Positions 29,149 through 64,000 of a stretch of 64,000 nucleotides of DNA are shown here, piece after piece. A model generated the notes under the pieces. That model was not told where the DNA came from. It was given only the letters and a program-made list of their open reading frames with translations, and did no database searches. The stretch is taken from contig KK106981.1 in assembly GCA_000611775.1 (NCBI GenBank), positions 3,400,672 through 3,464,671 on the forward strand, read 5' to 3'. A program made the translations under genes and the position numbers. The stretch comes from Umbilicaria muhlenbergii. Lineage: Eukaryota > Ascomycota > Lecanoromycetes > Umbilicariales > Umbilicariaceae. The stretch's first letter is position 1. Each line of letters opens with the position of its first letter.

Positions 29149-29225
29149 GAGAGCGCTTCTGAATAGACCTCTTCACCTTTCACATAAACCTCTGAACTTT
29201 CACATAGACCCTACTAACCTGATTG
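29149..29225 (+). repeat. MULE left terminal inverted repeat
   Basis: Pairs with 31,984-32,060 in inverted orientation, with about 5 differences, all transitions. Confidence 0.85.
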
Positions 29226-31983
29226 AGTATAAATATGTGTAGTAGACCACGTCACTGCCTCATGAGCTTCATGAATGAAGCCTGCCCTCTTTAATCATGA
29301 CAGAATTTTCTGATTCTCTTTCAAGTTCTGTAGCAGAATTCCATGACGTCATGAAGGACTTTGTGAACGTTCAAATATCAGATTTCAATGAAGAATTGAA
29401 TGAAGAAAACTCTGACAAGTCATCTTCTGAAACTGCTGTTAATTATCCTCTTATGCAGCTGCTTTCTTCACTGACTGATCAACCCTTTTCTACCCTCACT
29501 GCCCTGATTCAGAAGGTGAATCTACATGCTGTCAAGCAAGATTACATCATCATCAAAGCAGGGTATAAAAAGAATGAAAATAATGAAGTGATAAAAAACT
29601 GACTAAAATGCTCTCAGAGTGAAAAATATAAGAATCATGTAAACCTTGATTTAAGAGTTAAAGAGGAAGCTGTTCATATGACAGAATGCTCATGAAAGAT
29701 GTACAGCAAAAGAAGTAATGATGTATGAGAACTGATTATAAGAAATGATAATCATAATCATTCAGCTGCTTCACTTGAAGCTTACTTCACTCATAGAAAA
29801 TGAACTGAAGACAACATAAAACAAGTGTGCTTAAATCAGCAATGAAGCTTTACTGCTCTACAAATTGCAGTGAGACTGCACATGAACAATCTCAATCAAT
29901 ATTTTAAAAAACAGGATATATATAACATTATAAGAGATATAAAGAGGGAGGAGCTCTGTTTAATGACTTTTTTACAAACCTTACTGCAAGAACTTCAGAC
30001 CTCAGAGAAATGATACATTGCTTATCAATTAAACCTCTGAGATCAACTGTGAAGCCTGTTTTTTGCTTATCAGCCTGCTCTGAATTGATTAAAGAAATAT
30101 CTTAACATTCTATTCATAGATGTCACTTATAAGATGAACAAATATAACATGCCTCTTATCATATTGATGTCAACAATCACCTGCAACAAAATCTTCTATG
30201 TGAGGTTTGCTTTTCTTCATCATGAGGATGCTGAGTACTACAGCTGACTTGTCTCTCATATTAAAATCATACAAGTAAACATAGAATGTTCAGATGACCT
30301 TGAAACAGCAATCACAGATAAAGAAGAAGCTTTAATTGAAGCTTTAAAAGAAGAACTTCCTGCAATCAAACTTCTTCTTTGTCAGTGACATATTAACAAG
30401 AATGTTCTGACTCAGGTAAAGACAGAAGCTTACTTCACTGATGTTGAAACACAATAAACTTAATCACAACTTTTTTTTGCAGTTCACAATGCCTTTATTG
30501 TAACAGGCTTTCATGAAGTGCTTGTCAACCTGACTCTTGCTGATCTGAACTCTGAGGTTAACTCTCATTAATTTACTACCCTTTATAAATACCTCCTAAA
30601 GGAGTGATTCATTGAGGGCATGTGAGAGAAGCATTGCTGAGCCTGAATGAACATCTACCTTCACTTCAATAAGTTAGTGACATCAACAGCAGAAGGAGGG
30701 CATTGAGGGATTAAATAAAAATTAAAAAGCAGTCTTGAAGATCTGACAAGTGTTATAAAGTAAGTGCAATATAAGTTTGAGCATTAATTGCATGAATTGC
30801 ACCTTCTTCATGAAGATCAGAAGACTGAGATCATGCTTCTTCATCATAATGCCTCAATTTTTTGATATCTACAGTAAGAGATTAATATTCAAGTCATTGA
30901 GCTTATGCATGAGCAGTGAAAGGAGCTTATCAAGAAGTTCACATGCTTATTATCTTGTATCAGGATTTTCTGAATCATCACAGGTCTCTCATGCAAGCAT
31001 GATATTTAAACTTTTCTCTTCATCAAGGAAGCTCTGAAATGAAATTACATACATTCTCATTAATGATTAAATTCACTTGCAGAGGTTCAGCCCGTGAACT
31101 TTGTGACTGTGGTTCAGAACCTCATTCAAGTTCATTAATGTGAAAGATTAACTGAGGCTTTCATCAGGTGAGACCTCTCACAGTGAAAGCTTATCTTAAA
31201 TTAAGTTAATCAGTGAGAGCAGTGAGAGCAGGAGGAGCAGAGGAGACAAGAGAGACAGAAAAAGTAAAAAGATCAAGAAGCAAGTCAACAAAAAGGAAAT
31301 GAACAGCAACAGCAAGCTTCACAGGCTCTGTGAGCCTCAAGTCAGTAAACAAGAAGAGCAGCAAGTCAACAAGCTCAGCAGCAAGAAGAAACATCATCAG
31401 AGCAGATAATTTTATTTTAATTCATCAACTTTACTCCTGTGACAGACTGTCTTGAGAACATGAGACAGCAGGAACAGTGACCTTCAACTGTGATGAACAC
31501 ATTAAACATCCCTCATGAGATGCTTGATGTGTGAAACATCCTCAATTAGTCAGCTAAATCTTCACCTCTGAGGCATGTCATAAAGGTGATGATTTAGCTG
31601 ACTGTCAGATTTTGACAGCACTTCATTGCTTGAGGCTGCCTCAGAATTCTGATTGAGGGGGGTTATGAGGTGATGAAGGGGGTGACAGCAGCAGGTGAAG
31701 AGAATGATGACAACAGTCAGAGGAAGCAACAGTGACAGTCAGAGGAAGCAGCAGCAGCAGTCAAAGAAGAGGTGATGACATCAATAGTGAGAAGACAGCA
31801 GTGAGGGGGGTGAAGATCTGCATGCAATTAACATATATTCATCTTTTGAATGACTTTTGAAAGTCAAAATTGAACTTTAAATCTTGAATAATTGAGCCTT
31901 TTAATTTAATCTTCATTTTCATTCAGATTTTGAAGAAATTATCACCTCTGATGCATAAAAATGACGCGCTGAGTAATACTGCC

Positions 31984-32060
31984 TGATCAGGTTAGTAAGG
32001 TCTATGTGAAAGTTCAGAAGTTTATGTGAAAGATGAAGAGGTTTATTCAGAAGTGCTCTC
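31984..32060 (-). repeat. MULE right terminal inverted repeat
   Basis: Inverted partner of 29,149-29,225. It is followed by a probable diverged 9-bp target duplicate at 32,061-32,069. Confidence 0.85.
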
Positions 32061-32399
32061 TTTCAGAAATTTAACTTTTTGTCCCCTCAATAACATCATT
32101 TCATCTTCACTTTTTGCATATTTGACTGCTTGCCTCCTCAATAACACTTTCCTGCCTTCACTTTGCTTTTCATGCTTTTCATGCTTTTTGTAGTGTAGTG
32201 ATCATCATCTTAGCTGATCAGCTTTGCTTCTTTCTTTATGAGTCATGAGAATTATAAACCTCTTCTCTTCCTTCAGTCTGCTTTTTTATTTTTACTTCTC
32301 TGTTGTTTAAATGCTCCTGTGACTCTGTATTCTTTCTGTTGATAATTTTCATCATTTAATCTTGTTTTTGAGCTCTACTCATCATTCAGTCTTGAGTTT

Positions 32400-35300
32400 T
32401 AACTCTACTTGTTATTTAATCTTTTTTAATAATTTTACTGATGCCTGCTTCATCTCCTCACTCAACAATGACTCTGAGAAGACACCTCAGGGTGACTTTT
32501 ACAGTTGTCACTGCATTAATGATGATCAGAGCTTCAGAAGCTCCTGCTCTGAACTTTATAATAAACTCAGTGATCATACAAATGATTAATAATGACACTG
32601 ACGCTGCTGCAATCTGTGCAGTCATGATCATGAAGCAGAAAAACCAGCTGAAGAACATCACATGAACATACTCACTTTCATGAAAGCTCTGAACAGTCAG
32701 TTTCACCTCTTTCTCATTTTGCCCTTGACAGCAGGTGTTAACAATTGGCTTAAAAATTCTGTCATGAGCATCATTATCAGGATGATGTTTTAATCAGTGA
32801 GGAAAAGCTTCTTTAATTCATGAATGAAGAGATTCTCCTCTGCAGGGTTTTCACAAAGAAGCTGAGAAAGATGAGAAAGAGGATCAAAAAATCATTAAAG
32901 AGGAAGATCACTTGATTGAAGAAGAACAAGCTGAAGTTAAAGACAATGAACAGCAGTGACAATGATTAAAGCAGTGATGATGACAGTGAAGCTCATGTCT
33001 GCAATCCTGAAGATACTCCCCTGAAGTGAAACACTCTGAAGAATTATATTGCAGTCATAATGAATATTTATAATGAGCAGGTAAGTGATCTCTGCTTTTA
33101 TTAAAACTTTTATATTTATCTGACATCTGATAAAAGTCTTCTTGAAGCTCAACAACAACTTGATTCTCTGCTTCATCACTGTCAACACCTGACTGAAGGA
33201 CTGAAAGCGGCTTACAGATCAACAGCAGCATGAAAGTTATGAGGATCAGAGATTAAAGATGCTCCTCAACAGTTATTCAGACCTGAAGTTGATCATGATG
33301 TGTAAAAACTTGCTGAAGCAGTCATTAAAGTACTTCATGTATCTTCAGACCTGCCTTGACATTCTCATCAGTCATTACTACTTGATCAGAGGAGAAATAC
33401 ATCATGATGCTGATCTTACAGACCTTTACCTCATCATATTTAATCAGAGACAAAGCTTCACCCTCTGTCAAGTCACTGTGCTTATTATGTGCAACAGCAA
33501 GATCAACAAGAACAGTTGAGTTGAGCATATGAAAATTATTTAACACAAGAATGTCCTCATCTGTTCTGTTAAAACTTTAACTCAATACCTCTTCTTCTGT
33601 TGACATCAGACTGATGAGGAATTCTTGTCATTTTAAAATCATCAGTGATATGATCTGAAGCTGCTTGTGAGTCAAGACTCTGTTTATGTTATGAAGTATC
33701 ACATGCAGCTGAATCAGATCAATCAGCTGTTTGAGTGCTGTGATATTGCATCATCAAAGAAGACGCATGCAATGCATGTTTTAACACTGAACATTAAGTA
33801 TTTAAATGAGACAACTGAGGAGGATGTGAGTTTCACTTCTCTTTTTCATTTTATATGTTTCAAGTTTAACCCCTTGATTGAGGTGTCTCTACTGTTTTCA
33901 TTCTTATTTTTCAGTTGAGAGGTCAGTGTTAAATTTTAATCATGTGATTTTTTATGACAGTGAGTCCTCCTTCTTCTTCTTGACTTCATGACTGACAGGC
34001 CTTTTAGCACTATCATACATATCAATTAGAAGTCACTTTGCATGAAGAACAAAATTGAACTGAATTTTTAAGAGCCTCAAGTTGAAGAAGCACATCAGCT
34101 CTGAATCTCTGAGATTAAAACTTAAACTTTTTTTTAAGACTGTTGAGGCTGAATCTTCTGAAGAGCTTAAAAGCTTACTGCAAATCACCTTCAACATCAA
34201 AGTTTGAGCTCAATCAGACAAGATTGAATGAAGGAACAAGACTGATGAGAAGAGATCTTTGAAATGTTAAAGAGAGTAAATGCTTCACCTTTCTCTTTCA
34301 TGATGAAGTACTTACTTACTGCATCTTCAGAAAGACTTATTTCTTGTCTTTAAAATTACTTCACAGCCTGTTCAGACATGATTTAAATTTTTAAAAGTCT
34401 TCACCCCTTTACTGCTTGTTTTAAACTTTTCATCAGATACTCATTCATCTCTCTCTGCATGTCAAAAATTCAGACTGAACACTACAGCTCTCAAATTAAC
34501 ACACATAATAAATTTATATGTGCACAACAAAGATCACATTAATCACTGAGCTCAACTACAAAGCCTCTTAAAAGTGTCACCTCTTATGAACTTTTCAGGC
34601 AGCAGGCAGACTTTTTTCACTTTTTAAAGTTCTGCATGAATTTCTGCATATTATTGTCTGAGCCTTGTTTTTACACTGTCTTTCATATGTTTCAGGTTCT
34701 TTTTAGTTAATTATTACATAAATTTAATGAACAGGCGGCTGAGACTCTTCTGTCATGATTAAAACATATTTAACAGCCTTGCTTTACAGCTACATTTACA
34801 GGGCAGCTGAATTTCAGTTAAAAGATGATTATCATCTTAAAAGAGTGCAGATGACTTCATCAGAAGCTTTATTATACTTGATTTAATTAAAAGTTGAGGC
34901 ATGACTGAAGCACTTTCATCTTCATACAGCCTGAAACATCAGCTATTAAAAGAAAGATATTGATGAAAGTGATTTAATCACTTAAGACTTTCTTCATTTA
35001 TTGAAGTCTCTGCAGCTCATCTTCTTGCAAGATTTCATCATCTTGCAGATTAAATTCCCTGATCATTCTCTCTTCACTGCTGAGATTTTTCAGCATTCAG
35101 CATGAAAAAACTTTGCTGATGCTGTTGTGATCATGAAGCAGACTGAAGAGGAGCTTGTGAATGTTTAAATTCAATGAGTAATGTTTTTACTCACTGATCA
35201 GATAAGCCTGCTCAGTCAGACCCTTATAATGAATCAGAATGTTAATTTTAGTCAGATGAGCAGAGTGATCAGGCAGGTATTAAATTATCAGTGAAATTAA

Positions 35301-35439
35301 ATGAAAAAAAGAGTTATTTTATATGCTCATTTATTTCATTAAGTTTCTTCTTCTTCTTCTTCTTAAGTCCTGACTCTGCTGTTGCTGTCTATGAGTGACA
35401 CTTTAAAAATTAAGTCAGATTTAATGCCTGTGCTCTCTG
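32400..35439 (+). mobile_element. Crypton-type tyrosine-recombinase transposon, decayed (ends uncertain)
   Basis: The plus strand at 33,259-33,830 resembles fungal Crypton / Ndc10_II-domain recombinases. In order it shows LLNSYSDLKLIMMCKNLLK, then ISHYYLIRGEIHHDADLTD (the conserved RGE block preceding the first catalytic arginine region), a K(I/T)N block near 33,500, a HKNVLIC block near 33,545, and the LFECCDIASSKKTHA block near 33,735 with the KTH catalytic motif. The order and spacing match the family. Cryptons have no inverted repeats and use a recombinase rather than a DDE transposase; no terminal repeats were found here, so the limits are only those of the surrounding AT-rich stretch. 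Coding sequence is broken by many stops. Family call moderately sure; limits are guesses. Confidence 0.6.
35342..35366. repeat. TTC trinucleotide microsatellite
   Basis: About six TTC units in AT-rich DNA just before the inverted-repeat element. Confidence 0.7.
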
Positions 35440-35445
35440 AGCTGT

Positions 35446-36694
35446 CTACGCTGCACCATGGGTTGGGTTTTACCCAGTGGGTTTGGGTTTGAGTTGGGTT
35501 TGGGTTGGGTTTTGGGGTGGGTTATACGTGTCAAAACCCAACCCAGAAAAAACCCAACCCATTTAACCCAAACCCAGAAAATTCTGGGTTAACCCAGTAC
35601 ATACAAATAGTTATGGTAGTCTTTATGGTAGTCAAGAAAGTCAGTTCAAAAGGCGCCTTCTTAAGCCATTTTCAAGGCCATTTTTTGAGGCCGTCGTCGA
35701 AGCCATTTTGAAAGCCGTTTTGGAAGTCACTTTGGAAGCTGTTCTTCAAGGCCGTCGATGAAGCCATTTTGGAAGCGTTTTGGAAGTCGCTTTGGAAGCT
35801 ATTTTTCGAGGCCGTTTTGGAAGCCGTTTTGAAAGCCGTTGTTCGAGGCCGTTTTCCAAGGCCGTTTTCCAAGGCCGTTTTCCAAGGCCGTTTTCCAAGG
35901 CCGTTTTCCAAGGCCGTTTTCCAAGGCCGTTTTCCAAGGCCGTTTTCCAAGGCCGTTTTCCAAGGCCGTTTTCCAAGGCCGTTTTCCAAGGCCGTTTTCC
36001 AAGGCCGTTTTCCAAGGCCGTTTTCCAAGGCCGTTTTCCAAGGCCGTTTTCCAAGGCCGTTTTCCAAGGCCGTTTTCCAAGGCCGTTTTCCAAGGCCGTT
36101 TTCCAAGGCCGTTTTCCAAGGCCGTTTTCCAAGGCCGTTTTCCAAGGCCGTTTTCCAAGGCCGTTTTCCAAGGCCGTTTTCCAAGGCCGTTTTCCAAGGC
36201 CGTTTTCCAAGGCCGTTTTCCAAGGCCGTTTTCCAAGGCCGTTTTCCAAGGCCGTTTTCCAAGGCCGTTTTCCAAGGCCGTTTTCCAAGGCCGTTTTCCA
36301 AGGCCGTTTTTCAAGGCCCTCGTCAAAATTGTTATGGTAGTCTTTATGGTAGTCAAGAAAGTCAGTTCAAAAGGCGCCTTCTCAAGTCATTTTCAAGGTC
36401 ATTTTTTGAGGCCGTCATCAAAGCCAGTTTGGAACCCGTTTTGGAAGCCGTTTTTCAAGGCCGTTTTTCAAGGCCGTCGTTGAGGCCGTTTTGGAAGCCG
36501 TTTTGGAAGCTGCTTTGAAAGCTGTTTGGATGAGTCATATACGTGAACTTGAACTGGGTTACCCAGTGAAAAACCCAACCCAAACCCAAAAAAACCCAAC
36601 CCAGTGTGACCCAACCCAAAAAAAACCCAACCCAGTCTGGGTTGGGTCACAATAGTCAAAACCCAACCCAAACCCAACCCATGGTGCAGCGTAG
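35446..36694. mobile_element. Non-autonomous inverted-repeat element filled with a minisatellite
   Basis: A 1,249-bp element. Its ends are exact inverted repeats for at least 25 bp (CTACGCTGCACCATGGGTTG and its complement), and similarity continues for about 100 bp of TGGGTT-rich sequence. It is flanked by a 6-bp direct duplication AGCTGT at 35,440-35,445 and 36,695-36,700, so it inserted as a unit. Inside are two direct repeats of about 96 bp (35,609-35,705 and 36,330-36,425) around a 13-bp tandem array. No transposase is present. The element keeps CpG sites while the DNA around it has lost them, suggesting that it arrived after, or escaped, the mutation process. Superfamily unclear; hAT-like organisation is possible but a 6-bp duplication is not the hAT norm. 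Confidence 0.82.
35847..36314. repeat. 13-bp minisatellite, about 35 perfect copies
   Basis: The unit GGCCGTTTTCCAA repeats about 35 times without change from 35,847 to 36,301, then one variant unit. The preceding 180 bp hold degenerate relatives (GGCCGTTTTGGAA and similar). Because 13 is not a multiple of 3 and the unit has no stop, all six frames stay open. The long frames here are therefore a by-product and not evidence of a protein. Confidence 0.95.
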
Positions 36695-36700
36695 AGCTGT

Positions 36701-38424
36701 CATCATCTTTAATAATGAAGATCAATTGAACTCCTCTTCATCATTCTGCTGCTGCAGTGTCTCAGGCCTCATTCACTCATTAAATGAGTGTTCATATCAA
36801 CACTGTGAAGGACTTGTGATGGGAGTGAAAGATAAATGTGAGCTTCAGATCAGTAATTAAGTGACTGAAAAAAACATACAACTCATCTTGATGACTCATC
36901 AACAGAGCATGAACCTGATTTAGCTGACAGAAGATTATAATTAATGAGATAATCATCAAGGCACCTTACAGGACTGATGAAGCAGACAGTGTTATTAAAA
37001 ACTTAAAGACTTTTCAGGTTTCATCAGAGTGTAAATCACTGAATTGACTTTCAAACTACCTGAAAAACTTGAAGAAGTCTTCACAGCACACTTGATTATT
37101 ATATGCTTCAGATCTGACCTCATCTTTCTTTTCACAATCAATGAGAAAGTTAATTTTGTGACAGGTTCTCTTTCACCTCCTCTTAAACATTCACATCAGT
37201 CTGAATCACTCATGACTTTCAGGCCGTTTAAAGGGTTTTAATAGTTAAAGTTGAGGCAGGTTTGCACTGATGAAGACATTTTAATCATGAATGACTCAGT
37301 GAGTCCTGTTTCAAGCGCACTGTTTTATTATTTCTTGCAATATACTCTCAGTGTTTTCATGTGTTCAAGGCTCCTGTCATCAGGGATTATAATTTAATAT
37401 ATACTTCATCTTGCCTGAACATCTCATGCCTTTACTGTGATGTGTGTGATTGTACTGATTATGTTTCTTCATCAGCCAGGAAAAAAATTAACTCATTGTG
37501 ATTACTTGAGGCATGAGCTTGCTGACTGACTAAGCAGAAAAGAAGTCAGCAGCAACATGATGAAAATTTATGTATAAACTTCTTTATTACACAAGGCGTC
37601 AAGCGCATCATCATGCATGTGCATGCATGAGCATGCAGTTTCAGAATAGTGCTTTTGACATTCAATTATAGAATTTCTATATAAATCTCATACAAACTGC
37701 ATTGATTGATAATCATTTATGATTATACATGCTTTTCACATGTGATGTTGCTGTTTCTGAAGGCGCTGTTGCTACTGATTTTAAAATGAGCAGTTTCAGC
37801 TGTTTTTATATCAGTGTTTCACTGCCTTTAATCACTTTTATAATTATTATTACTGTTATGATTCTGCCTTTTTTCTTTCTTTCTTCATTAATCATGTCTT
37901 GAGCTCATACACCCTCTGAACATACTGCAGAACATCAATTAGGAGAAGTAAATTTTCATCAGATTTGTTATTTTTTAAATTGTTTTGATTCAAAGTCTTT
38001 TTTTATTGATGACTGTGTTTCAACTGTGATTATATTCTCACTGCACTTTCACTTCTTCATCTCTGATGAGACTCTTCATTTAAATCATCTTCACTGCTGA
38101 ATCACCTCCTTCACAGTTGATTTATCTTCACAGCAGAACTTTCTTCCTCTTCACTTCTCCTCTTTTCTTTCATCATGTTTTTTTTTCTTTTTTTTCATCA
38201 CACCTCTCCTCTTCTTTCTTTCATCATGTTTTTTAATTTTTCTTCTCTCTTTCTGTTTTATTTTCTGCAATCATTTTGAGCCTGTTTCTTGTCTGATTAA
38301 GCTGATTTTAATGCACATGACATAACTTTATACAGTGAATTCATTTCTGAAGTCAGAAGTCAAAATTAACAGAGTTTAAAGTTTAATATCAGATGTCATC
38401 TGATTAAGTCTGTTTTAAACCTTA
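36701..38424. other. AT-rich, CpG-poor DNA, no gene recognised
   Basis: Decayed repeat-like DNA. A plus-strand open stretch at 37,044-37,241 has no recognisable domain. T-rich runs and CTTTC/TTTCTT simple sequence occur at 38,140-38,260. It may include the far part of the Crypton or another dead element. Confidence 0.4.
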
Positions 38425-38745
38425 TATCAAAAACACCTCCTGTTTCAACCTCAGGCCTTCATCACATCACTGAAGATTCTGACAGCTGACAGGCAATGTT
38501 AATAGCTATAATAAGCAGATGAGACTTCTCAAATAAGTAATTTTAAGCTCACTTTTGATATTATAAATAATAATATTTATTATACAGTTGAAGACTGTAT
38601 ATCATATCAAAAGTGAGCTCAGAATTACTTATTTAAGAAGTCTCACCTGCTTATTATAGCTATTAACATTGCCTGTCAGCTGTTGAAATCTTCAGTGATG
38701 TGATGAAGATTTAAAGTGACTTTATATGCTGTTTTTGATGAATCA
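38425..38745. mobile_element. Foldback element: long inverted repeat with short loop
   Basis: Arms 38,458-38,562 and 38,602-38,707 are inverted copies, with only a handful of differences and those transitions. The weaker outer similarity extends to about 38,425 and 38,745. The loop is about 40 bp of AT-rich sequence. No coding content. It fits a foldback element or palindromic MITE, or a head-to-head duplicate; no target duplication was identified. Confidence 0.75.
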
Positions 38746-38839
38746 GCTTGATTGTTGAAGAAGGAAGTGTGTCAGATTTGTATGAAATATCAGTATAAAA
38801 CTGATGTTGATCAAGCAACTTGACAGAGGCAAGTTATGA

Positions 38840-39065
38840 GGTGAAATTTCAAGTGACTTGAAGGCAGAGAAGAAGAAAATTGAGGGGAGGAAGGAAGAAG
38901 AAGGATGAGGAGATGAAAAAGAAAGCAGAAAGCACTCATGAAAAAAAGATTAAAATGAGGAGTGAAGAGAGAATGAGAGAGATGATCATCAAAAGTCTGC
39001 AAAAAAGGAAAGAAGGGGCTGAGGGTGTAAAAAGAGAAGAAGAGGAGGAGGGAGACCTGATCACT
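38840..39065. repeat. Purine-rich low-complexity tract
   Basis: About 220 bp almost free of pyrimidines on the plus strand, giving Lys/Glu/Arg-rich frames on plus and Ser/Phe/Leu-rich frames on minus. It is treated as low complexity; a transposase tail is possible but unsupported. Confidence 0.5.
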
Positions 39066-39329
39066 CAAGGTAATTTATAATATATCAACATTAATTATCA
39101 CCTGATCTTATTCATACTTTGAGGTCTTCAATTGATCAATATAAAGCTTCTAAATTCAAATTTCTAAACCTGTAGCAGCCATGCTGATGTTGCATGACAG
39201 TTCACTAGTAGGGCTACAGGACTGCATATATACTTCATGTAGAAAAAAATTCATAACTCAGTCAATTTTGCACCAATTCAAGTGAACCAAAGATGAAGTG
39301 TGATGATTATATTGCTATGAAGTTGTTCC

Positions 39330-39933
39330 GCGCCTTAGAATTAAATTGTGATGCTGAGGTGATGGCGCCAGTGACCACCTACTGCCTCAGCGGCTTATTG
39401 TCCGGCGTAATCACCTTAGCGGCGTATTCATGTAATAATGCACCAAAATTCACCCCCAGATAAGTCCTCCATATCACCATCGGTTGAGAGGCCCCCGCTG
39501 TCTTCGAGATTAATGGAGTAGGCACGGCATTTGTAGCTTGAACAGTGTTAAATGGGAAGAGCTGTCAGGAAGTGTTTTCTATGGAACTGTCTACGGCGGT
39601 TAGATGGGATATCAAACCAGCAGCGGTGCAGGTGCTCGACTGCGGACATACATCCGGTTTAATGGTAAACATTGGCTCGCGGGGTTCCCGCATGCTGGAA
39701 ACATGCAACTCTATTGGCGGACAATAGTGTTGACGTAGGTAGGGTAGGTAGGCGAGGCAAGGTAGGCAAGAAGCTTGTATGGAATAGTCCGACAATGCAG
39801 TGGCGATGATATCATGCTCGTTCATTCCATCATCGCCAATGAAGTCATCTTTCTTCACCTCCACCAACTCCACAGTTCTACTTTCTTCTGATACCATCCT
39901 TCGATCTTCATTCTACACACCAATACCGCCATC
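39330..39933. promoter_or_regulatory. Upstream region of the island dehydrogenase
   Basis: Composition returns to normal here, with CpG sites. It contains a GTAGG/GTAGGC-type short repeat at about 39,734-39,772. Presumed promoter of the gene at 39,934. The open frames at 39,545-39,897 have no motifs and are not called. Confidence 0.4.
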
Positions 39934-41041: not shown

Positions 41042-41885
41042 ATGAGCTTTGTAGGTTAGAAATAGGTATGACGAAATGGCTTTTTGCTTCATGATAGATG
41101 GAAATATTGAAACGATCCGAATTTCATTGCTAGTCCAACCGTGCAGCTATTATCTTGATATCAAATATAAAGCATGACTTGTAGATATTGAAGAATTCCG
41201 AGAATTCATAACCAATTAGCCAACGTGAAGAAAAGGATACATATAACTTCATACCTTTAGGTAATTCATCACTATTTGTATTGTAAAACAAGATCAAACG
41301 TAGTATATATATCTATATATAGTATCCGTCTGTTCCCGAACTGATGCTGATTAAGAATGGCCGCTTTGCTCCCGCGCTAAAGCCTGGCTTATCTTCCTGC
41401 TCTCCCATGCTTTCTCCATGCTCCCTTGCTACTCTCCCGTGCTCCCCTATGCTCCCTTCATGCCCCCCCTTGCTCCCCCTTGCTTCCTCGCTGCTCCCTC
41501 TGTTGAATTTCGCCGATTCGCCGCCGAGCAGACGTCATTGAGGCAGGGGTTTAGGGCAGGGGTTCAGGGGTTCTAGCGTGAAAAGCAGTCACGTCATGGG
41601 TGTACGTACGTCTAGGCTTAGTGAAAAAGCTCCTAAACGTGTATATTAATGGCTCAAAAGCCTCAAGTTTCTGCTTTCTTCCTTACGTTCATTTATTCAA
41701 TATCGGAGCGATATTTAGCAAGTGCAATAATATATTTATTTGGCTTCTAAATAATCATCTCATTACAACAGGTTATGAGCTCAGTCAGTGTCTAAACTAC
41801 CGCCTGTTGCTGTTGTCTACTGCCTCTGCTCTAACCCTCACTGCCCTAACCCCCGCTGTCATCAACCCCGCCGTCGCCACCCCCG
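41042..41885. other. Island flank with C-rich simple sequence, no gene
   Basis: The 3' side of the dehydrogenase. A pyrimidine-rich run of TGCTCCC-like words fills 41,398-41,505, and AGGGGTT-like words lie at 41,543-41,575. A sequence near 41,768 (CAGGTTATGAGC) resembles the primer-binding region of the copia element at 42,382, suggesting another LTR remnant here. Confidence 0.4.
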
Positions 41886-47212: not shown

Positions 47213-47215
47213 ATG

Positions 47216-53200: not shown

Positions 53201-53287
53201 CAGGAGTCAAGTTGATTGAATGTTTTATTAAATCAGTTGATCAGATTTTCTGCATGATGATGATAAAGCAGTTCTTTCAGATATACA
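50250..53287 (-). mobile_element. Ty3/gypsy fragment A (RT to integrase), fossil
   Basis: Minus-strand gypsy Pol remains: reverse transcriptase region (about 52,400-53,270), RNase H (about 51,800-52,300), then the integrase zinc-binding domain in an open 62-codon stretch at 51,461-51,273 (His/Cys pattern), and the integrase core below it (about 50,500-51,200). RT before integrase fixes the Ty3/gypsy order. The 5' part is missing because another element abuts at 53,288. Left limit approximate. Many interruptions; old. Confidence 0.7.
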
Positions 53288-54218
53288 TAGAGTGACCGCC
53301 AGGACGGGAGTCCCGGTTCAGGATGAAGAGATGAGATGAGACAGAACAGGATATGAGATCAAGCAGTAATCTCATCCTCTGAGACTGAGATGAGAGTCCT
53401 GTCCCGTCCCGTCCTGTGATCTCAGCAGGATCCTGGTCACGTGACTCCTTATATGACTGTCAGTGGTTTTGGGACACGGAAAAGGGAAAAACGGCTTTCA
53501 AAACAGCTTCAATGACGGCCTCAAAAAACAGCTTCCAAAACGGCTTCAACGACGGCCTTAAAAAACGGCTTCCAAAACGGCTTCAACGACGGCCTCAAAA
53601 AACGGCTTCCAAAACGGCCTCAACGACGGCCTCAAAAAACAGCTTCCAAAACGGCTTCAACGACGGCCTCAAAGAACAGCTTCCAAAACGGCTTCAACGA
53701 CAGCCTCAAAAAACAGCTTCCAAAACGGCTTCAACGACGGCCTCAAAAAACGGCTTCCAAAACGGCCTCAACGACGGCCTCAAAAAACGGCTTCCAAAAC
53801 AGCTTCAACGACAGCCTCAAAGAACAGCTTCCAAAACAGCTTCAATGACAGCCTCAAAGAACAGCCTCAAAAAACAGCTTTCAAAATGTGACTGAGAGTC
53901 AGTGAACTGATTATTACATGATGTTGAGATTCAAATTAATAATTTTAATGATTCAATGTAATGATCTATGATGAAATGTAAACTGATGACTCCTTAGATG
54001 ACATTTAACTTAATGTGATACTGTATCAAGCCTCTTTAGGTTAAGCTTAGGTTATTGTCATCATGACATATCAATAATGCTGAGACAACAGGACTATTCC
54101 CATCTCATTCAGTCAACAAAATCAGGACTGAACTGAAAATTCATCACTGAGACAGGATGAGATTGAGATGAGACAGAGATTAAAAATCTGGTTCTGTCTC
54201 ATCTCAACAGTCATCATA
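53288..54218. mobile_element. Inverted-repeat element carrying a 37-bp minisatellite
   Basis: About 931 bp. The ends can be paired as 22-bp inverted repeats (left TAGAGTGACCGCCAGGACGG..), where 13 positions are identical, 8 differ by transitions and one by a transversion. GATGAGACAGAAC-like words then recur inside both ends. The left end and the minisatellite keep CpG sites, while the right half is mutated. No transposase. It sits between gypsy fragment A and gypsy element B. No target duplication was found, so the exact limits are uncertain. Confidence 0.55.
53490..53885. repeat. 37-bp minisatellite, about ten copies
   Basis: CTTCAACGACGGCCTCAAAA followed by AACGGCTTCCAAAACGG, period 37 bp, with variants. 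Its core GCTTCCAAAACGGCC is the reverse complement of words in the degenerate part of the array at 35.7-35.85 kb, so the two arrays are related and in opposite orientation. The 159-codon plus frame across it is a by-product of the repeat. Confidence 0.85.
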
Positions 54219-54239
54219 GTGAGTGAGAACTTGACATTC

Positions 54240-54519
54240 TGTAAGAGGCTGAGTGTACGACGGTCATTGTAGTGATGTTTGAACGGGGTGTCGTAGGCAA
54301 TATAATCATGATGAGGTCAATGCAATGGTTATACATCTTCTATTCAGTGGCAAAACTGATCACTGAGGAAGCAGGTTTCTGAACCTCCTTGTGAAGAGTT
54401 TTACTTGATGTCAAGGCGCTAGGCGCTGAGTCATCATGTTTATATAATGTCATACTATAGTGTCATACTATAGTGTTGTACTTGTTGTACTGTCATACTA
54501 TTATATGATGACTCTGACA
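54240..54519 (-). repeat. Gypsy B LTR, left copy
   Basis: Direct partner of 62,209-62,482. Differences (about 13) are all transitions and all lie in the first 125 bp; the remaining about 150 bp are identical. Internal 13-15-bp repeats of GTCATACTATAGT at 54,448-54,505. Confidence 0.9.
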
Positions 54520-54939
54520 CAGCATTCCCCTTCTCATGATGTCATCTCTGAGGTCAATTGACTTTGAATCTGTCATCATAGACATCATCATGATGACCTG
54601 ATAAGTGATTGATCATGTAGAGTGAGGGTGTGAAACTGCACTAAGGTAAGGCTGATCACATGCCTCACTTAATTGTGATGATATCACACCTGGCAGTAAG
54701 TTCCTCCTAACATAAACATTGAAATTAAAATGTTTATCATAGATTCAAAATGCTCTTCTCTTGTGTTTCTTCTTTGTCATCTCTCTTACAACATGTCATC
54801 ATACTTCTCATGATTTTTTCACAGCTCATTGAGTGACTTAATGACTTCATGATGTCATCCTCATTGCAGAGGTGTTCACCTCATGAAGGGAGCATCATGA
54901 AGCTTGCAGCTCACAGCTCAACATTCTTGTGATGTCATA

Positions 54940-55600
54940 CTTCCTGTTGTACATTGTATGAATGCTAACATGATATATAAGCAATCAATAATTGAACTCT
55001 TGAACTCACAGCCATGAACAACAGTGAAGACCCGCCTTCATCAGGGAAGCTCATCAATCTCTGAGCTCAATGTGATGAGGAGGGCTCTGAATCAGAGTTA
55101 ATGAGTGAAACTGTGATGATCAACACCTTCAGAAAGAGATGAGGAAACAGAGTGATAAAACTGACTGTTCAACACTTGAAGAGAGTTAAGCATCTACCTT
55201 TGAATGACATCTTCAGCAGCAGTTCTTGCTCTGTGTGATGTCATGATGATACCTCACTGCTGGCTCACGTGCAGCAGGCTCATCATCATGAGCGTGTGAT
55301 TTGAGAGAACCTCAGTCACATGTTGTCAGGTACTGCTCACTGTGGCTCTTGTATAAGAATCAGAGTTGATCACTGCTTTGTGTTGAACAGAGGAGCCTGC
55401 ACGTGTTGCATATCTCTCTGCAATTCTCATGAGTAATGCATGACAGAGCCTTTGATCATCACTGCTCTTGACTTTGAAAGCTCTGATGTTGTTGTCCTGA
55501 TGCATGTTTATGATGATCAGAGGGGTGACAGCACACTGTAAGTCTGTCTTTTTTAATTTCCTTTTGTTTTGTTTAATATGACAAAGTGTCATACTTTATG
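54940..55600 (+). other. Plus-strand coding-like stretch antisense to gypsy B, broken
   Basis: In the Pol-free part of element B, a TATATAAG box at about 54,974 is followed by a plus-strand ATG at 55,014 and a coding-like stretch with a Cys-His-His pattern (SLLAHVQQAHH near 55,255) resembling half of a C2H2 finger. It is interrupted and treated as a fossil accessory frame, possibly an antisense gene of the element or a separate insertion. Weak evidence. Confidence 0.3.
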
Positions 55601-55625
55601 TCATACTTTTGTCATACTTTATGTC
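55572..55625. repeat. GTCATACTTT short tandem repeat
   Basis: Four GTCATACTTT-like units in AT-rich DNA of element B. Confidence 0.7.
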
Positions 55626-56258
55626 ATACTTTTGCATTGCTAACTAGTCATAGTGTTCAATGACTGATCATCAGATTCTCATGCTGTCACTTCTTATCAG
55701 TCATTATCAGCATCCTTCACACCCCCTGCAGCTGCTCCTCAACATGAGTCTCATGACATTCATAATGAGGTGATTAATGTTAATTCAGTAGTTCTGAGAA
55801 GCTCATTCAAGCTCTTGCTGTCTTGTTGAAAAGCACTGCTCACACTCTTCACATCCTCAACACTCATTAATCTCATCATCATCAAGAGTATATTGAACTC
55901 TGTGAGCAGCATCATGTTGAGGAGATGAGATCAGAGGCTTCATCAAACAGCAAAAAAGAATTTGAGACAGTGAAAGACAAGTAGATAAATGAGGATGACT
56001 TGATGTGACACTGATGAGAAGTTGAATGCAAGGTGTTGATCTCAAGTTCATTTTAATCTTCAGACCTGAAATGAAATGCTTCTGCACTTAAGTGTTCTCT
56101 GCAATGTGACACATCTGTGATAATATAATTTATGCAGTAATTCTATTAAAGATCCTGTTATAATGTTGTAGTGTTGTAGCTCCTGTCATACTTGTTGTAA
56201 AGCACAAGCTCTGTCATAGAAGATTAAGTTAACAAAGTTGACAAAGTTTTCAGTTCTT

Positions 56259-56370
56259 AAGACTCATGACTTTTGTGACAGCTTCTCAATTGATCTTGAA
56301 GGGTCACATCTTAAAGCTCATGACTTTTGTGACAGCTTCTCAATTGATCTTGAAGAATCACATCTTAAAG
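56259..56370. repeat. Two tandem 54-bp copies
   Basis: The word CTCATGACTTTTGTGACAGC recurs 54 bp apart, and the whole unit is repeated nearly exactly, inside element B. Confidence 0.85.
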
Positions 56371-58162
56371 CTCACCTGAATTTCTGTTTGTCAGAGTTGT
56401 CAGCATGAAATTTTCACATTTTTGCCTTTACATTGCAGATGAAGTGTGTTGATTCTCATGTGTCATCTCACACCTGATCTGTCAGCTTTCATTTGATGAG
56501 GTATTGAAGCCTGTCATCATGAACATGATTATTCACAATTGCCTTGACTTCTCACTCATCATCTCAGTTGAGTAGTAGGTCTTTTCCTGCCAATGCAGAG
56601 GACACATGACATGTGCCTTGAAATGACTTCAATAAAGTGATGTTGAATACATTATAAATGTTTTGATCCTCTGAGAGGTCAAGTTCATACAATGATTGAC
56701 TTATCACACATCATATCATGAATGAGCTGAGCTTTTTTCAATGCAGTTTCTTTGTCTGCTTGTTCACTGACACATTCTTTTCATTGATCAGTACTAAATC
56801 ACCTTCTTTGAATGTTATCTCTGTTCAGCACTGATTATAATAATTTGCATACATCTTGTTGACCTGTCATAACTGCTTCTGAGTTGTTGCAATTTGATCT
56901 TGAAGCTGCTGTGCATCTGCATAGAGTCTTATTTGTTCATGTGAGTGCTGTATAAACAGCCTACTTAAGCTCATCTGAGGGTCTCACCTTAAATTAAGCT
57001 GAAAGGGGCTCTTTCTTGTAGCAGCATGTATGAAGTTGTTGTATGAGAACTTCATGCAGAGTAAAAGCTTCACTCAGTCCTCTTGCTGCTCATCAATGAA
57101 TATGCATAAATACATCTTCAGGGACTGATTCTGCCTCTCTGTTTGACTGTCAGTTTGCGGGTGAAAAGCTGTTGACATGTTATGATGACATCACATGTGA
57201 AAGCAGAAGCTGATTCACTGCTTCAACATAAACAGCTTGTCTCTGTCTGTGATTAAAACTTTTGACACATCATGATGCTTGACTATGTCCTGAATAAACA
57301 CTTCAATAAAGTCAGCAATCAACATTGTCTTCTGTACTGAAATATAATGAGCCATTTTGATCAACTTATTAATTATGATGAGGATTGAATCTCATGTCAT
57401 ACTTTCATATGTGCTGCTCAGTGGCAGGTCCGTAATGAAGTTCATTGTCATCATATGTCATGACACTTTCAGGACTGATAATGAGTTTAATAATTTATAT
57501 GATTTGTGATGAGCTGACTTCACCTTTTGACATTCAACACAGTCATGACAGTAACATCATACATCTCTAACAGTGTCAAATCAATCATAAGATCATCACA
57601 TCAATTCTGCAGTTCTTGACTTCTTGAAATGATCTGCAAAAACATCATCATGAAATCAACTGATCATTGCATTGTGAAGAGCAGAGTTCTGCAGAACATA
57701 AATCTTACTGTTATAATGTATGACATCATTTATTTCTTGCTAACATTTTCATATATCTGACAGTATAAATGCCATATTTGGCTGCATTTCTGATGTCATG
57801 ATCATCTCAAGGTTCATGTCTATATTCATATTTGTCATCTCAAACTCAGTCAAGTTGTTTTTATCCTTGAAAGAGGTAGTTAATCCCTGTTGTACTCATC
57901 ATATCAAACTGTCTTTTGACTGCTCAGTATGAATTGCATGTTCAAGTTGTTTAATAGACATTCTTATATAAGCTGTTATCTCCTCACCTATTGATGAGCA
58001 AGTAGACATGAGTTGAAGCACTTCAACAGTGTCAGCAGAAGCACTATCCTCAATTTGAAGATTAATAGAAACATGACTTGCATCATCATTCATAACTGCA
58101 GTGTTTGCTGAGTTATTCTTAATTAAGTGCTGCTGAGGCTCTGCATATTTAAACTTTCTTAT

Positions 58163-58441
58163 TCAGTCACGGCTTGCTTCTTGAGCATGTAGGTAACAGA
58201 CTGCTGATGTTTCAGTCATATCATCAGCTTCAGTATTCATTATATTAATATATTCATCACAGCTTGCTTCTTGAGCATGTAGATCATGAACTGCTGATGT
58301 TTCAGTCATGCTGTCAGCTTCAGTATTCATCATATTGACATATTCATCATGGCTTGCTTCTTCTTGAGCAGATAAGTTCTGCATCACTGATGTTCTGATG
58401 AGACTGTCATCTTCAGTGTTCATCATACTGATAATATTCAT
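58163..58441 (-). repeat. Three tandem repeats of about 93 bp in an open stretch of gypsy B
   Basis: A 92-codon minus-strand open stretch consists of three copies of a 30-31 residue unit with the words MNTEADSMTETSAV and HAQEAS. It lies between the RNase H and integrase regions. The repeat has kept its frame. Confidence 0.75.
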
Positions 58442-61400
58442 TGTGACAGGTATGATGTTCTCTTGTTATAACTTCTGTCATACTGAGTGTCTTGACTGCA
58501 GCATCATTGCAGCAAGTGTGTATAATTTCTCCTGCACTGACTTATAATCCTTGCTTCCTAAATGGAAGGACTGTTGCATTATTTCAGCAGCAGTTGAGGT
58601 ATTGACAGCCTTCAGCAGTTCATAATCAGGTCATCTTGACAGACTGTCAGTAAAGTTCTTCTTGCCCTCTTGATATGTGATCTTAAAGTCATACTCAGTG
58701 AGCTTTTCAGCTCACTTGAGCTGCCTTCATGTGAGATTTGAGGTAGTCATGAACCAAACAAGGTTTGCATGATCAGTCAGTATGACAATTTGATGTTTAG
58801 CACCCTGACAGTAGTGCTGTTAATGATGCATGACTTTCATGATGACAAGGAGTTCTTGCTCACTTGTATCATATCAGGTCTCAGTATTTAGCAGCTTCTT
58901 GCTGTAGTAAGTAACTGATAATCAGTGCAATTGATCATCAACCTCAAAGTGTTGTGTCAAGATTTCATCAATTGTGAATTCAGAGGCGTCTGTTTCAACC
59001 CTCATGAGTTTGTTTTCATCAAAGTAGTGTAGTAATGAAGCACTCATGAAGATCTCCTTCAGAGCATTAAACACTTTCAATGCAGCTTCTGAAAGTGAAA
59101 AAGAGACAGGTACAACATTTTCTTGTTATAACTTTCCTCTGACTTGCAGGCTGCATGCTGAATAATTTGTATTAAACCTTTACAATGAGATCAGGCTGTT
59201 CTGCTTTCTTTTAATAACAATCTGTTGAGACTGAAGAGAAGAGAGTGATGTATTCTCAGTCTCCTTTTTATTCTTTCCTGTTTTCAGGAGATTTAACAGC
59301 AGTGTTGCAATTCATGAATAATCTCTTATAAACCTTTGAAAGAAGTTAATGAAGCCTAAAAAGACCTGCAATTCATGAACATTCTCTGATGATAATCATT
59401 CTTCAACAGCGTGAATCCTTTCTGAACTCATATGTATGCCTTCAGTATTGATCTTAAACCTCAGGAAGTTCACTTAAATTGAATTAAAAAAGCATTTGCT
59501 GATCTTAAGATGAAGATCATGACATCATAATGCAGTTAATACTTGTCATACATGCTCCTCATGTTCAGATTCATCTTTGCTGAAGATCAGGATATCATGT
59601 AGATAAATCATGCAGATTATATCAAGGAACTCATTAAGAGCCTTATCAATGAATGCCTGAAATGTAGCAGGAGCATTCATGAGACTGAAAGACATGACAA
59701 GATATTCAAACAGGCTGAATCATGTTTAAAATGCTGTTTTTCACTCATCTTCACCTTTGATTCATATTTAATTATATGCATTCTTGCAGTTCAGCTTAGT
59801 GAACTTCTTAACTCCTTGAAGATGATTCAACATGTCTGATATAAGTGATAATGAGTAGTGATTTTTAATGATAATATCATTCAAGCACTTATAATCAATG
59901 ACTAGTCATAAGCTGCTGTCTGATTTTGATACAAACATAACAGGTGAAGCTGCAGATGATATTAATTTACAAATTATACCTGCCTTCATAACATCATCTA
60001 GATATACCTTCAGTACATCAAGCTCAGTCAGAAACATTAAGTGTAACTTTCTGAATGAAGATTGCTGCTCTGATTTCAAGTCAATGACATGATCATGTGA
60101 ACCTCTCTCAAGTAAAGACTGCTTCTCAGCTGCCTGAAATATGTCTGTGAAGTCATGATATTCAGGAGGTAGACTGTCATAAACATTGTTGTACTTTTTG
60201 TCATATCACAATGAGTTCATCTGTAGGGTATATTTTTTCATATCAGTCACTAAGTCCGCCGGCCCTATAAAGCAGTCAGTAATGATGAGGTTGTTCATAT
60301 GTAAAACATTCTTCAACACCTTCTTTTCACTGATGATGAATATACAGCATGTGATAATATGTTTTGACTTTCTTCATAGGAATTTACCTGTATCATAGTA
60401 GTGATTTGGGTTTGCATGAATTAGAAATGATAACTCAAGAACAAAAGGAGCTGATGTGTTGTCTTGTGTGATAAAAAAATGATTGCTATAATGATAAGAT
60501 TAACTGTCAGTGTCATAAACTGTAATCATCAGTAAAACAGACTCTGATAGCTCAATCACATTACCTCATGCATTGCCTTGAGCCTCATAGGATTCAGTCA
60601 GTAGGGACAGCTTATTGACAACATCTCATGTGATTGTATTGCCCTGGCTGCTGTTGTCAATAATATATGAATATTTTTTCTTCAGATTATTTCTTGTTGT
60701 ATGAAAGTTCACCTCTAGCTGCCCTGATATCAGATGTGAGATATCATGAATGATAAATAAGAAGGTGAGCTGAAGATTAACTGTGAATCATTTATTTACA
60801 TCAATCATGATAATGACTACTGTTGATCATCCTGTTGTACATTCATTTGTTCAATGACTGATGACTTCACACTTGATACAGAGGCCTGCTGCTTTTCATG
60901 CATTCACTTCATTCTTAGAAATAAAGTCTTCTTGTCAGCATGAAGGTCTTGTGAACATCTGTGTTGTTGTCATGATCACTTTCTTCACAACTGATATGTG
61001 ATTTGAATTTCAGCTTTGATCATGATTACTTTCTTGATAAAAGCCTCATGAATTGTTTCCTTTTTCATGATTGAATTGTTGAGGGTGAGAAGTTTATTGT
61101 TTGATGAAAGATTCTTTTCTGTCATAGTATGACGTCTGTGTTGTACTTTTGTTGTTGTTGTCAGTTTTGCTTTGATGATCCTTTTTGATGTCTGAGCAGC
61201 TTCAGAATGATTCATGATTGATGATGATGTCAAGATGTGCTGAAATTTCCTGCACTGACTGTCTTGCAACCTGCGTCAGATCTCAACATCATAGTTCAAT
61301 CAGAACATGATGAGGAAGTCTTAATCATCAGTGATTTCAAATGAGCATCTCACTGATTTCCTTATGTGAAGCTGAAAGGAAGCAGTAGAGTTCTGATAAT

Positions 61401-62208
61401 TTGTCATATCAGGAGGTGATTGTATCATGACTGTGAAGTTCAACTACATTAAAGGTGATGATATTTCATTCATTCATGTCTTCATCAGGAGATAGGTTCT
61501 TCTCTAGAATCTTTAAAAAGTTGTTGTAAATGACTTAAATGTGATCATGCTGCTTCTTTTGCTTTCATCAGTCACTCATGACTGTTTTCTCAAGGTAGGT
61601 GCCTGCTCAGATGATGAAATCTCATTTGATAGAAAATTGCTCTGACATCAGCTCCTGATTCTGATTGATTTCATTCAGATATTCTTGAAGTTTTCATCTC
61701 ATGACTTTAACACCTCCTGCATAGAGATGAGACTCTCATGACTTTATAAGATGTCAAAAAGGGGGAGGTGTGATATCTGTCATAACTCAACATCATAATT
61801 CATGTGATGAACCTGCGTCATTTCTTGAGTTTATTGTAGTTGAAGGATCTTCTTGCAGATGTTAATTGAGCTCTTGAAGCTTCTTTTTATTGTTCTTAAA
61901 CTTAATTTCTTGTCATATGCATCATAATTGTAATCACTGACGCTTGATGACCTCCTGATTATGAGCAATGACTGCCTCAAGATCTTCAATGATGTCATCA
62001 GGGTTGCCTGCAGCAATATGTTTGTCATCATCAATGATGTCAGAAGTAAAGGTATTAATGACTGATAATGTAAACCTGTTAATTGAAGAGCTTGCCTCAG
62101 CTTAATTATCAACTGTTTCACTGACCTGATGAGATTGAAGTGTTGATGTCATCATGTCTTATTTGCTTTCAATGTGACTGTTCACCTGAAGGTACTGAGT
62201 GATCAGTA

Positions 62209-62482
62209 TGTAAGAGGCTGAGTGTATGACAGTCATCATAGTGGTGTTTGAACAGGGTGTCATAAGCAATATAGTCATGATGAGGTCAATGCAATGATTA
62301 TACATCTTTTATTCAGTGATAAAACTGATCACTGAGGAAGCAGGTTTCTGAACCTCCTTGTGAAGAGTTTTACTTGATGTCAAGGCGCTAGGCGCTGAGT
62401 CATCATGTTTATATAATGTCATACTATAGTGTCATACTATAGTGTTGTACTTGTTGTACTGTCATACTATTATATGATGTCA
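62209..62482 (-). repeat. Gypsy B LTR, right copy
   Basis: Direct partner of 54,240-54,519. Confidence 0.9.
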
Positions 62483-64000
62483 TCTTTCTTTTGTATAAAC
62501 AGAATTGATGAGGCTACTGATGACTGACTGACTTCAATGAAACTTTTTCATAAGTTGTCTTCTATGTAGTTCTTCACTGCTACCAGTTCCTCATGTGATA
62601 TATTGTAGAGAAGTGTGTATTCAAGCTTTTGCTCACCTTTTAAGATGATTTTGTGATCATAAGGTTGATGCAGAGGGAGTTCATTTACAGTCTTTTTAGA
62701 AAAGACATCAATCAGGTCATGATATTCAGAAGGGAGAATCATCTTGATATTTAATTCACTTGACTTCAGTTCAAGGTTCAATGCTTTCTCAATCTGTTGA
62801 ATAAAGATAACAAAGATTTTGTTGCCTTCCTTCATATTCAATGTGAACAGTGCTGCACTGATCATCTTGATATTGACTGCATTTAATACAGAGGCTGGTT
62901 CAGGATCTGCTTTTGTGATGAATTTCTTCAAGATCTGATGAAGTTTCAGTGATTCAAGTTCAGTTGTTTAATTTGTTTGTTCATTTGATGTTCAGTTCTT
63001 CAGTGTTGTTCATTTATTTGGTTGTTCATTCAGTTGTTCAGTTTGTTCATTTAATGGGAAAACCACTACCTGGTTCACAGGGTTGATTAAAATTCAGGTG
63101 TGATTCATTTAAAGTAATCTCAATATAATGCTGAGATCTTTCATGTCTACAATCATCATGAGAGTGAGTCACTGAGAATAACTGCAGACCTTCATGATTG
63201 AATAAATTATGTGTGTAACTCATCTCACTGTCTTCTTCTGGAAATCATGTAGAGTTCAGGGCTTTGACAGTGACATTGTCTCAATTTCAGATCATTCAAT
63301 CAGAGTCTTTGCCAGGTTAATATTAATAAATGCATATTCAGTTGACTCAGTATCAAGTAGAGCCTTGACTTGTAACTTAACCTCATTCAGTGTGAGCTTG
63401 CAATTCACTTTGAATGATGTTCAGGTGAACAGCATGTCTTCATTAATCATCAGTGCTGATATTACAAGGGGATTATCATCAATTCTTATCATGACTTTGA
63501 TAGGGGAACGCCTTTTCCTAAACCTGATTCAGAATCAGAATCAGAATCAGAGTTGAATATGATTCATTGCATGCATTTTAATGTTGAAGTCTCTTTCTTT
63601 TTGTCTTTGTTTGAATAATTTAAGGCAAGGTGCCTCTGTTTATTGCATTTAAAACAACATTCTTCCTTTATCTGTTGTTTATCAGCAATTTAGCAAGTTA
63701 GCTCTGAGTTAGTTTTTAGCACTTTGAGCGCTCTGAGCTTCTGATCTCATGTTTCAGCTAACAGCCGCTCTTAGCACCCTTTGAGCACTTTGAGCTCAAC
63801 CTTAAATCTTGAGCGGAACATCAAAATTTTGTGATAAAAAAATAATTATTAAAACAATTGTTTAAACAAGTACAGACACAGTGTTATAATAACAGTAAAA
63901 CTTATAATAAGTAAACTTTTGCTAAAGTTCACTTTTCTGCAATAAAAAATCATGATTTGTTGAGTCTGCAAGCACTGTATAAGTGTTGAGTTCTGAATAT
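62483..64000 (-). mobile_element. Ty3/gypsy fragment C (zinc knuckle, protease, start of RT), fossil
   Basis: Minus-strand remains running off the right edge: a CCHC zinc knuckle (about 63,630-63,670), an aspartic protease region (about 63,300-63,500), and the segment leading into reverse transcriptase (62,931-62,548, an open 127-codon stretch with YHDLIDVFSKKTVNELPLHQ). It stops where the LTR of element B begins at 62,482. Sequence differs from both A and B, so it is a third gypsy lineage. A run of ATTCTG/CAGAAT hexamers lies at 63,524-63,552. Broken; number of interruptions not counted. Confidence 0.75.

Follow-up and report, generated by a model that had tools for sequence, protein, structure and literature searches.

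Cytosine mutation at C-N-A triplets in Umbilicaria muhlenbergii transposons, probably by a process like repeat-induced point mutation

We analysed a 64,000-nucleotide stretch of the Umbilicaria muhlenbergii genome (GCA_000611775.1; 34.79 Mb in 7 contigs), bases 3,400,672-3,464,671 of contig 1 (KK106981.1). This whole stretch is called the window, and positions are those of the window unless a contig is named. GC content is 0.53 in the left 28.4 kb. From 28,400 to 64,000 it is 0.37, with observed/expected ratios of 0.28 for CpG, 0.70 for CpC, 1.41 for CpA and 0.59 for TpA. An earlier reading made from the letters alone (the sequence-only reading) had suggested that this part carries mutations like those of repeat-induced point mutation (RIP) that mostly spare CpA. 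We show that the target of the mutation is the triplet C-N-A, in which the second base 3' of the cytosine (+2) is A: CGA and CCA are changed most, then CTA, then CAA. The features of the locus are the following.

28999-64000, no strand assigned: hypermutated AT-rich block, defined by composition and by gaps in CGA/TCG, running past the window end
29139-32069, no strand assigned: element with 85-bp inverted repeats (29139-29223 and 31986-32069), called a MULE by the sequence-only reading, at the left block edge
35688-36527, no strand assigned: spared minisatellite cluster with a 13-bp unit, 39 copies at 35,809-36,318 and degenerate flanks
39480-42284, no strand assigned: unmutated island in the block, with CGA/TCG at normal density
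41887-42284, plus strand: left part of a 716-bp element, nearly unmutated, 96.5% identical to copy L018
42285-47211, plus strand: mutated copia element that splits the 716-bp element, with long terminal repeats (LTRs) at 42292-42381 and 47123-47212
47212-47535, plus strand: right part of the 716-bp element, heavily mutated, 86.4% identical to copy L018
53487-53873, no strand assigned: minisatellite keeping CGA within the block, 37-bp unit, 10.5 copies
54235-62479, no strand assigned: gypsy element with 276-bp LTRs at 54235-54510 and 62204-62479

Within the block, neither CGA nor TCG occurs over 28,998-35,694, 36,477-39,480, 42,802-53,550 and 54,291-64,000, that is, over 6.7, 3.0, 10.7 and at least 9.7 kb; the longest such gap in the first 28.4 kb of the window is 285 bp. 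A locus past the window end (L029) is still AT-rich (GC 0.332). The left block edge falls between the last CGA/TCG (28,998) and the start of the inverted repeat (29,139), and a second edge lies at most about 100 bp from the copia insertion near 42.3 kb, with one lone CGA at 42,802. The edges of mutated DNA are shown here to be fairly sharp at some repeat boundaries. The 85-bp inverted pair is 91.8% identical, with 6 transitions and no transversions; the copia LTR pair is 87.8% identical, with 11 transitions, and the gypsy LTR pair 94.6% identical. The RVT_2 match of the copia element at 45299-46018 (contig 1: 3445970-3446689) contains 8 TGA, 1 TAG and 3 TAA. The gypsy interior at 57950-61425 aligns with locus L052 (86.5% identity over 3,495 columns), to which its RVT_1-type match also leads.

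The sequence-only reading had described four repeat pairs in the block that differ almost only by C:G to T:A transitions. All four were located, namely the gypsy LTRs, 120-bp repeats at 41887-42006 and 47417-47536, the copia LTRs and the 85-bp inverted repeats. Counted by hand at sites with an equal 3' base, and with pairs touching minisatellites dropped, they sum to 43 C/T-type events (CpA 4/87, CpC 11/30, CpG 10/14, CpT 18/78), in agreement with the earlier by-eye counts of about 4 CpA, 14 CpC, 12 CpG and 16 CpT. Per site, the order is CpG > CpC > CpT > CpA; CpT is prominent in the raw counts because CpT sites are common. The proposed depletion of CpG was likewise found (observed/expected 0.24 in 29-39 kb and 0.12 in 43-64 kb), and for 43,000-64,000 the RIP indices TpA/ApT and (CpA+TpG)/(ApC+GpT) came to 0.59 and 1.73. 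As a description of the target, the next base was right about the sparing of CpA and incomplete otherwise: most changes require A at +2 and favour G or C at +1, and the +2 base counts at least as much as the +1 base.

The direction of change could be read in the 716-bp element, which the copia insertion has split into a left part (41887-42284) and a right part (47212-47535), and whose terminal direct repeat is the 121-bp repeat. Whole copies and lone 121-bp pieces occur on contigs 1, 2, 3, 4 and 7, many of them near-identical (window, L017-L027). We took copy L018 as reference; it is an imperfect ancestor, and its own changes appear as T to C against the other copies. Nine alignments reached 300 bp, one being L018 against itself, and three of the nine (L026, L027 and the window right part) had been picked as the heavy set before counting. 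The window right part shows 39 C>T or G>A changes, 2 changes in the opposite direction and no transversions, and over the 1,743 aligned positions of the heavy set there are 205 transitions against 2 transversions. Such nearly pure C:G to T:A change supports the earlier suggestion of a RIP-like process with a different context. In these alignments C was lost at CpG 34/74, CpC 82/222, CpT 40/257 and CpA 32/261. By triplet, the changed fractions were CCA 43/47, CGA 16/22, CTA 24/47 and CAA 24/93, with CAT at 2/51 and CAC at 0/40; pooled, 107/209 CNA sites had changed vs 81/597 other sites. L022, the most changed of the five lighter copies, gave CpG 6/30, CpC 12/90, CpA 3/108 and CpT 2/104, and L019, L024, L017 and the window left part had 2 to 7 such changes each, without a clear context order.

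Two triplets of the heavy copies, CGG (10/21) and CCG (9/21), are apparent exceptions to C-N-A. Their rates are high because the two form one duplex site that is co-mutated: the 21 CCG/CGG sites had changed on both strands in 9 cases, on one strand in 1 and on neither in 11 (Fisher p 3e-5). At a site of this kind, neither C gets its +2 A until the opposite strand mutates. Coupling was weaker at the 72 CAG/CTG sites (3 both, 8 one, 61 neither; p 0.016), and CNC control sites in the three heavy alignments showed no clear strand coupling (p 0.13). This strand coupling matches the prediction of the +2 rule, and the co-mutation suggests more than one mutation round.

The same rule held in copia and gypsy families, for which the pair sets drew on 16 of 20 reverse-transcriptase loci (L033, L039, L044 and L047 entered none). 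In copia A, with three copies about 95% identical, 132/407 CCA sites had changed vs 0/208 CCC and 0/144 CCG, and CGA changed about nine times as often as CGC (119/267 vs 8/163). When copia A was polarised with its least changed copy as reference, CNA sites stood at 85/486 vs 45/1283 other sites, and at 114/467 vs 47/1217. In copia A, copia B, one gypsy family and the window gypsy element, a regression on positions -3 to +3 put the strongest effects at +1, where G ranked before C, and at +2, for A; weaker effects were a disfavoured G at -1 in copia and a disfavoured C at +3. Across the four transposon families tested, which are not every repeat of the genome, CpA was the least changed next-base context and CpG the most changed; a dominance of CpA, which the sequence-only reading had named as the result that would speak against it, was thus absent. 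Transitions outnumbered transversions by 470 to 50 in copia A, 2,019 to 118 in copia B and 8,115 to 776 in gypsy. Runs tests on the copia A pairs found no strand clustering of the kind that would mark one processive event.

The mutation has left a compositional mark. In 30.2 kb of the block, island and minisatellites left out, both strands together hold 3 CGA, 93 CCA and 266 CTA, alongside 1,213 CAA, 1,364 CAG and 2,865 TGA. Among 204 1-kb tiles from chosen, non-random loci, those with GC 0.50-0.54 have 36 CGA per tile and those with GC 0.30-0.38 about 0.2, with CAG steady at 35 to 45; the 12 tiles with GC <0.30 average 1.2 CGA and 29 CAG. Of 17 further tiles at preset round coordinates, 2 were AT-rich and CGA-free and 15 normal. 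We then took the gene region of the window itself and let the copia A rates act on it for 14 rounds. This model reached GC 0.374, TpA/ApT 0.63, (CpA+TpG)/(ApC+GpT) 1.61 and 0.11 CGA/TCG per kb, with CpA at 1.44, CpC 0.65, CpG 0.20 and CpT 1.24 of expectation. The block itself has GC 0.349, TpA/ApT 0.60, (CpA+TpG)/(ApC+GpT) 1.73 and 0.10 CGA/TCG per kb, with CpA 1.49, CpC 0.55, CpG 0.08 and CpT 1.24, so that the copia A rates largely predict its composition. A simulated CpA-led process, at rates that we chose, gave the opposite of the block (TpA/ApT 1.18-1.40, CpG above expectation). With the classical RIP thresholds as given in the available text of PMC7882544, 0 of 69 1-kb windows in 29-64 kb were RIP-positive, island and minisatellites included.

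Stop codons in dead transposons tell the same story. We counted them in 205 listed reverse-transcriptase matches, of which 150 were scored RVT_1 matches out of 877 first-look candidates and 55 were RVT_2. These listed matches contain 913 TGA, 203 TAA and 19 TAG (682 TGA, 106 TAA and 15 TAG in the 150 scored of 877 RVT_1; 231 TGA, 97 TAA and 4 TAG in the 55 listed RVT_2). In the examined stretch of a copia element free of stops, the longest frame counts 31 CAA, 25 CAG, 18 CGA and 14 TGG codons. With such a codon content, targeting of CpA would make TAG common. Change of CGA to TGA and of CCA to TCA opposite TGG both create TGA.

As to whether repetition is needed, the multi-copy copia and gypsy families are mutated, and the two stop-free frames without another full copy found are L033 and L044. 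The DNA search found no second full copy of either, although a strongly mutated relative could escape it. Both are reverse-transcriptase frames, L033 at contig 3:352855 and L044 at contig 3:3998714; the GC content of L044 (0.61) is well above that of the rest of the genome that we saw. A length threshold would fit some of the repeats: five 716-bp alignments are partly or wholly spared, as are the two minisatellites, yet three 716-bp alignments are heavily mutated. Limits for RIP of about 400 bp for linked and 1,000 bp for unlinked repeats are given in the consulted part of PMC5381629, and sparing of elements of about 730 bp in Cladonia in that of PMC12542154. The spared 716-bp copies would fit both; against this stand the three heavy alignments. 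For the minisatellites, it may be that short-unit arrays are skipped, or that these arrays are younger than the mutation or unrecognised. CGA/TCG is retained in the 13-bp cluster at 35,694-36,477.

The unmutated island is small and of normal composition (39,500-41,900: GC 0.488, CpG 0.82 of expectation). Lying between mutated transposons, it carries an open frame at 40039-40491 (plus strand), presumably of short-chain dehydrogenase type from its look.

The sequence-only reading had also pointed to RID/Dim-2-type methyltransferases as enzymes to look for. The genome has four DNA_methylase matches, from RID-like, DIM-2-like and DNMT5-like genes and a decayed DNMT5 relative. This methyltransferase set, like the gene content, is in keeping with a filamentous ascomycete. 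The DIM-2-like gene (L013) has PF00145, DUF7893 and a weak BAH match below cut-off (29.7 of 30.8 bits), and matches 9bap_A, which we take to be Neurospora DIM-2, at E 1.1e-178. The RID-like gene (L014) has at least 2 exons, with PF00145 in both and no other family; its motifs PPCQ and EQT are presumably those of the RID/Masc1 class. At the DNMT5-like locus (L015), successive frames match DNA_methylase, SNF2 and, weakly, RING (21.3 of 27.9 bits), and the locus matches 7r76_A (titled Rad8; we take it to be Cryptococcus DNMT5) at E 9e-190. L016 (contig 1:6527376) was considered as a gene-level case of RIP and rejected: with 79% identity over 956 bp, mixed changes and no CNA bias, it looks like an old decayed duplicate of part of the DNMT5-like gene. 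Four OTT_1508_deam matches were over the cut-off. One such deaminase domain lies at contig 3:3633925-3634104 in a 622-aa open frame; of the three others, two hold stops. A search with the APOBEC_N profile gave no match, but no positive control matched either, so that it is uninformative either way. RID is the first candidate because RIP in Neurospora requires RID, according to the accessible portion of PMC12543289; DIM-2 is the second. The mutation would thus be written by a RID- or DIM-2-type cytosine methyltransferase, with the RID-like enzyme as the most probable one.

We consider it likely that the repeats underwent RIP-like enzymatic hypermutation, with C changed to T when A stands at +2, preferably across an intervening G or C. 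CGA and CCA would be hot and CTA and CAA weaker, hot sites ending as the duplex triplet TGA/TCA. Coding repeats would acquire TGA stops from CGA (Arg) and from TGG (Trp, through the opposite strand), and most CpA would survive. The mutation may act over several rounds and, as in Neurospora, before meiosis. With less assurance, though we lean towards it, we propose that a methyltransferase of the RID/DIM-2 type evolved a three-base readout that needs A at +2 and not at +1 as in classical RIP, giving a defence that writes TGA stops, spares CpA and evades surveys based on RIP indices.

Several observations weigh against this interpretation. Transversions are not negligible (50 of 520 differences in copia A, 118 of 2,137 in copia B and 776 of 8,891 in gypsy), which means that those copies also have ordinary age. 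The dependence on repetition rests on two unduplicated elements, several repeated 716-bp copies are hardly changed, and the two minisatellites in the block (13-bp and 37-bp units) keep CCA or CGA. The composition model leaves CpG at 0.20 vs the 0.08 seen. L014 is a putative RID, assigned by domain content and a motif, and the link between any of the enzymes and the target is presumptive.

An unlikely explanation of the same data is passive decay: in silenced repeats, the cytosines that DNMT5 (at CpG) and DIM-2 methylate would be lost with time by spontaneous deamination, and no dedicated mutagenesis would be involved. In its favour are the DNMT5-like and DIM-2-like genes of this genome, the lead of CpG among the next-base contexts, and the transversions in copia and gypsy, which indicate that the copies are not brand new. 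CpG methylation, however, explains neither the changes at CCA nor the excess of CGA over CGC in copia A. In the heavy 716-bp copies, moreover, CCA at 43/47 vs 2 transversions in 1,743 positions is, by hand calculation, a per-site excess of about 2,000-fold, far above the usual decay of 5-methylcytosine. Quite improbable, too, is that a DNA cytosine deaminase, for example an OTT_1508-like one, acts in place of a methyltransferase. The four domain matches, one in a long open frame, speak for such an enzyme. Known mutagenic deaminases of the AID/APOBEC type recognise bases on the 5' side of the C, whereas here 3' bases dominate. We give similarly little credit to two overlaid processes, a CpG-specific mutation or methylation decay together with a separate RIP targeting CCA. 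Where +2 is not A, CpG does remain above CpC (in copia A, CGT 35/228 vs CCT 17/361); one graded preference nevertheless explains why A at +2 raises change whatever the +1 base in both copia A and copia B, and most of the block composition follows from one set of rates. Finally, that classical CpA-directed RIP was misread from a small sample or an assembly error is very hard to believe: RIP fungi typically have AT-rich transposon blocks together with RID-like and DIM-2-like genes, but CpA is least changed in four families, TAG stops are nearly absent, a CpA-led simulation runs opposite to the block, and other contigs as well as 2 of the 17 preset tiles show the same pattern.

A RIP-like target at C-N-A would have practical consequences. 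The usual RIP indices assume a preference for CpA, and a heavily hypermutated genome would score as RIP-free; if this is true, other AT-rich fungal genomes scored as RIP-negative may have to be reassessed. Long CGA-free stretches together with TGA-dominated stops in dead transposons offer a simple screen for hidden RIP. The target is also sharply defined, over three bases and on the 3' side of the C, and there are few candidate enzymes, which gives a handle on what sets the target of RIP.

Compared with known systems, the process appears to work like RIP, with C-N-A as a shifted three-base target. This variant, whether as C-N-A or as CCA/CGA, was not found in the openly accessible literature that was searched. 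A 2025 survey of 1,239 fungal genomes describes, in the part available, a CpA preference shared by RIP-like defences (PMC12543289). In Microbotryum and other Pucciniomycotina, RIP-like hypermutation is directed at TCG, according to the excerpted text of PMC5381629. The likeness lies in a trinucleotide target in transposons, TCG and CGA being the same duplex triplet; the difference is that in those fungi the mutated C is that of TCG (giving TTG), and here that of CGA (giving TGA), with CCA hit as well. A preference for the C of TCG was not seen, as T is not the highest 5' base at CpG in copia A (T 42/200, C 75/232, A 59/263) and CCA is also hot. Those TCG-targeting basidiomycetes are reported to be without RID in the section of PMC4352252 at hand. 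Tuber melanosporum and Aspergillus resemble our case as ascomycetes that have RID and in which CpG is among the leading targets; the consulted parts of PMC4352252 and PMC2621366 describe CpG-biased transposon mutation with RIP in which CpA is secondary and report no +2 base, whereas our process spares CpA and depends on A at +2.

The plant chromomethylase CMT2, which methylates CAA and CTA, is a cytosine methyltransferase that also reads A at +2. It methylates and does not mutate, and it prefers A or T at +1, where our process prefers G or C. With RIP of Neurospora and other Pezizomycotina, the process shares C:G to T:A change confined to AT-rich blocks full of transposons, RID-like and DIM-2-like genes and many dead transposons. 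The nearly exclusive C:G to T:A change that marks RIP is seen in the heavy 716-bp copies and is less pure in copia A, copia B and gypsy. The CpA preference, typical of RIP and reported to vary between species, gives way here to C-N-A, CpA being lowest in four families. In Neurospora the order is CpA > CpT > CpG > CpC, and in Trichoderma reesei CpA and CpG stand above CpT and CpC, as far as the available text of PMC5496416 goes. In contrast to Neurospora, U. muhlenbergii has C-N-A in place of CpA as the target, with +1 occupied by G or C, and among the next-base contexts CpC comes second and CpA last.

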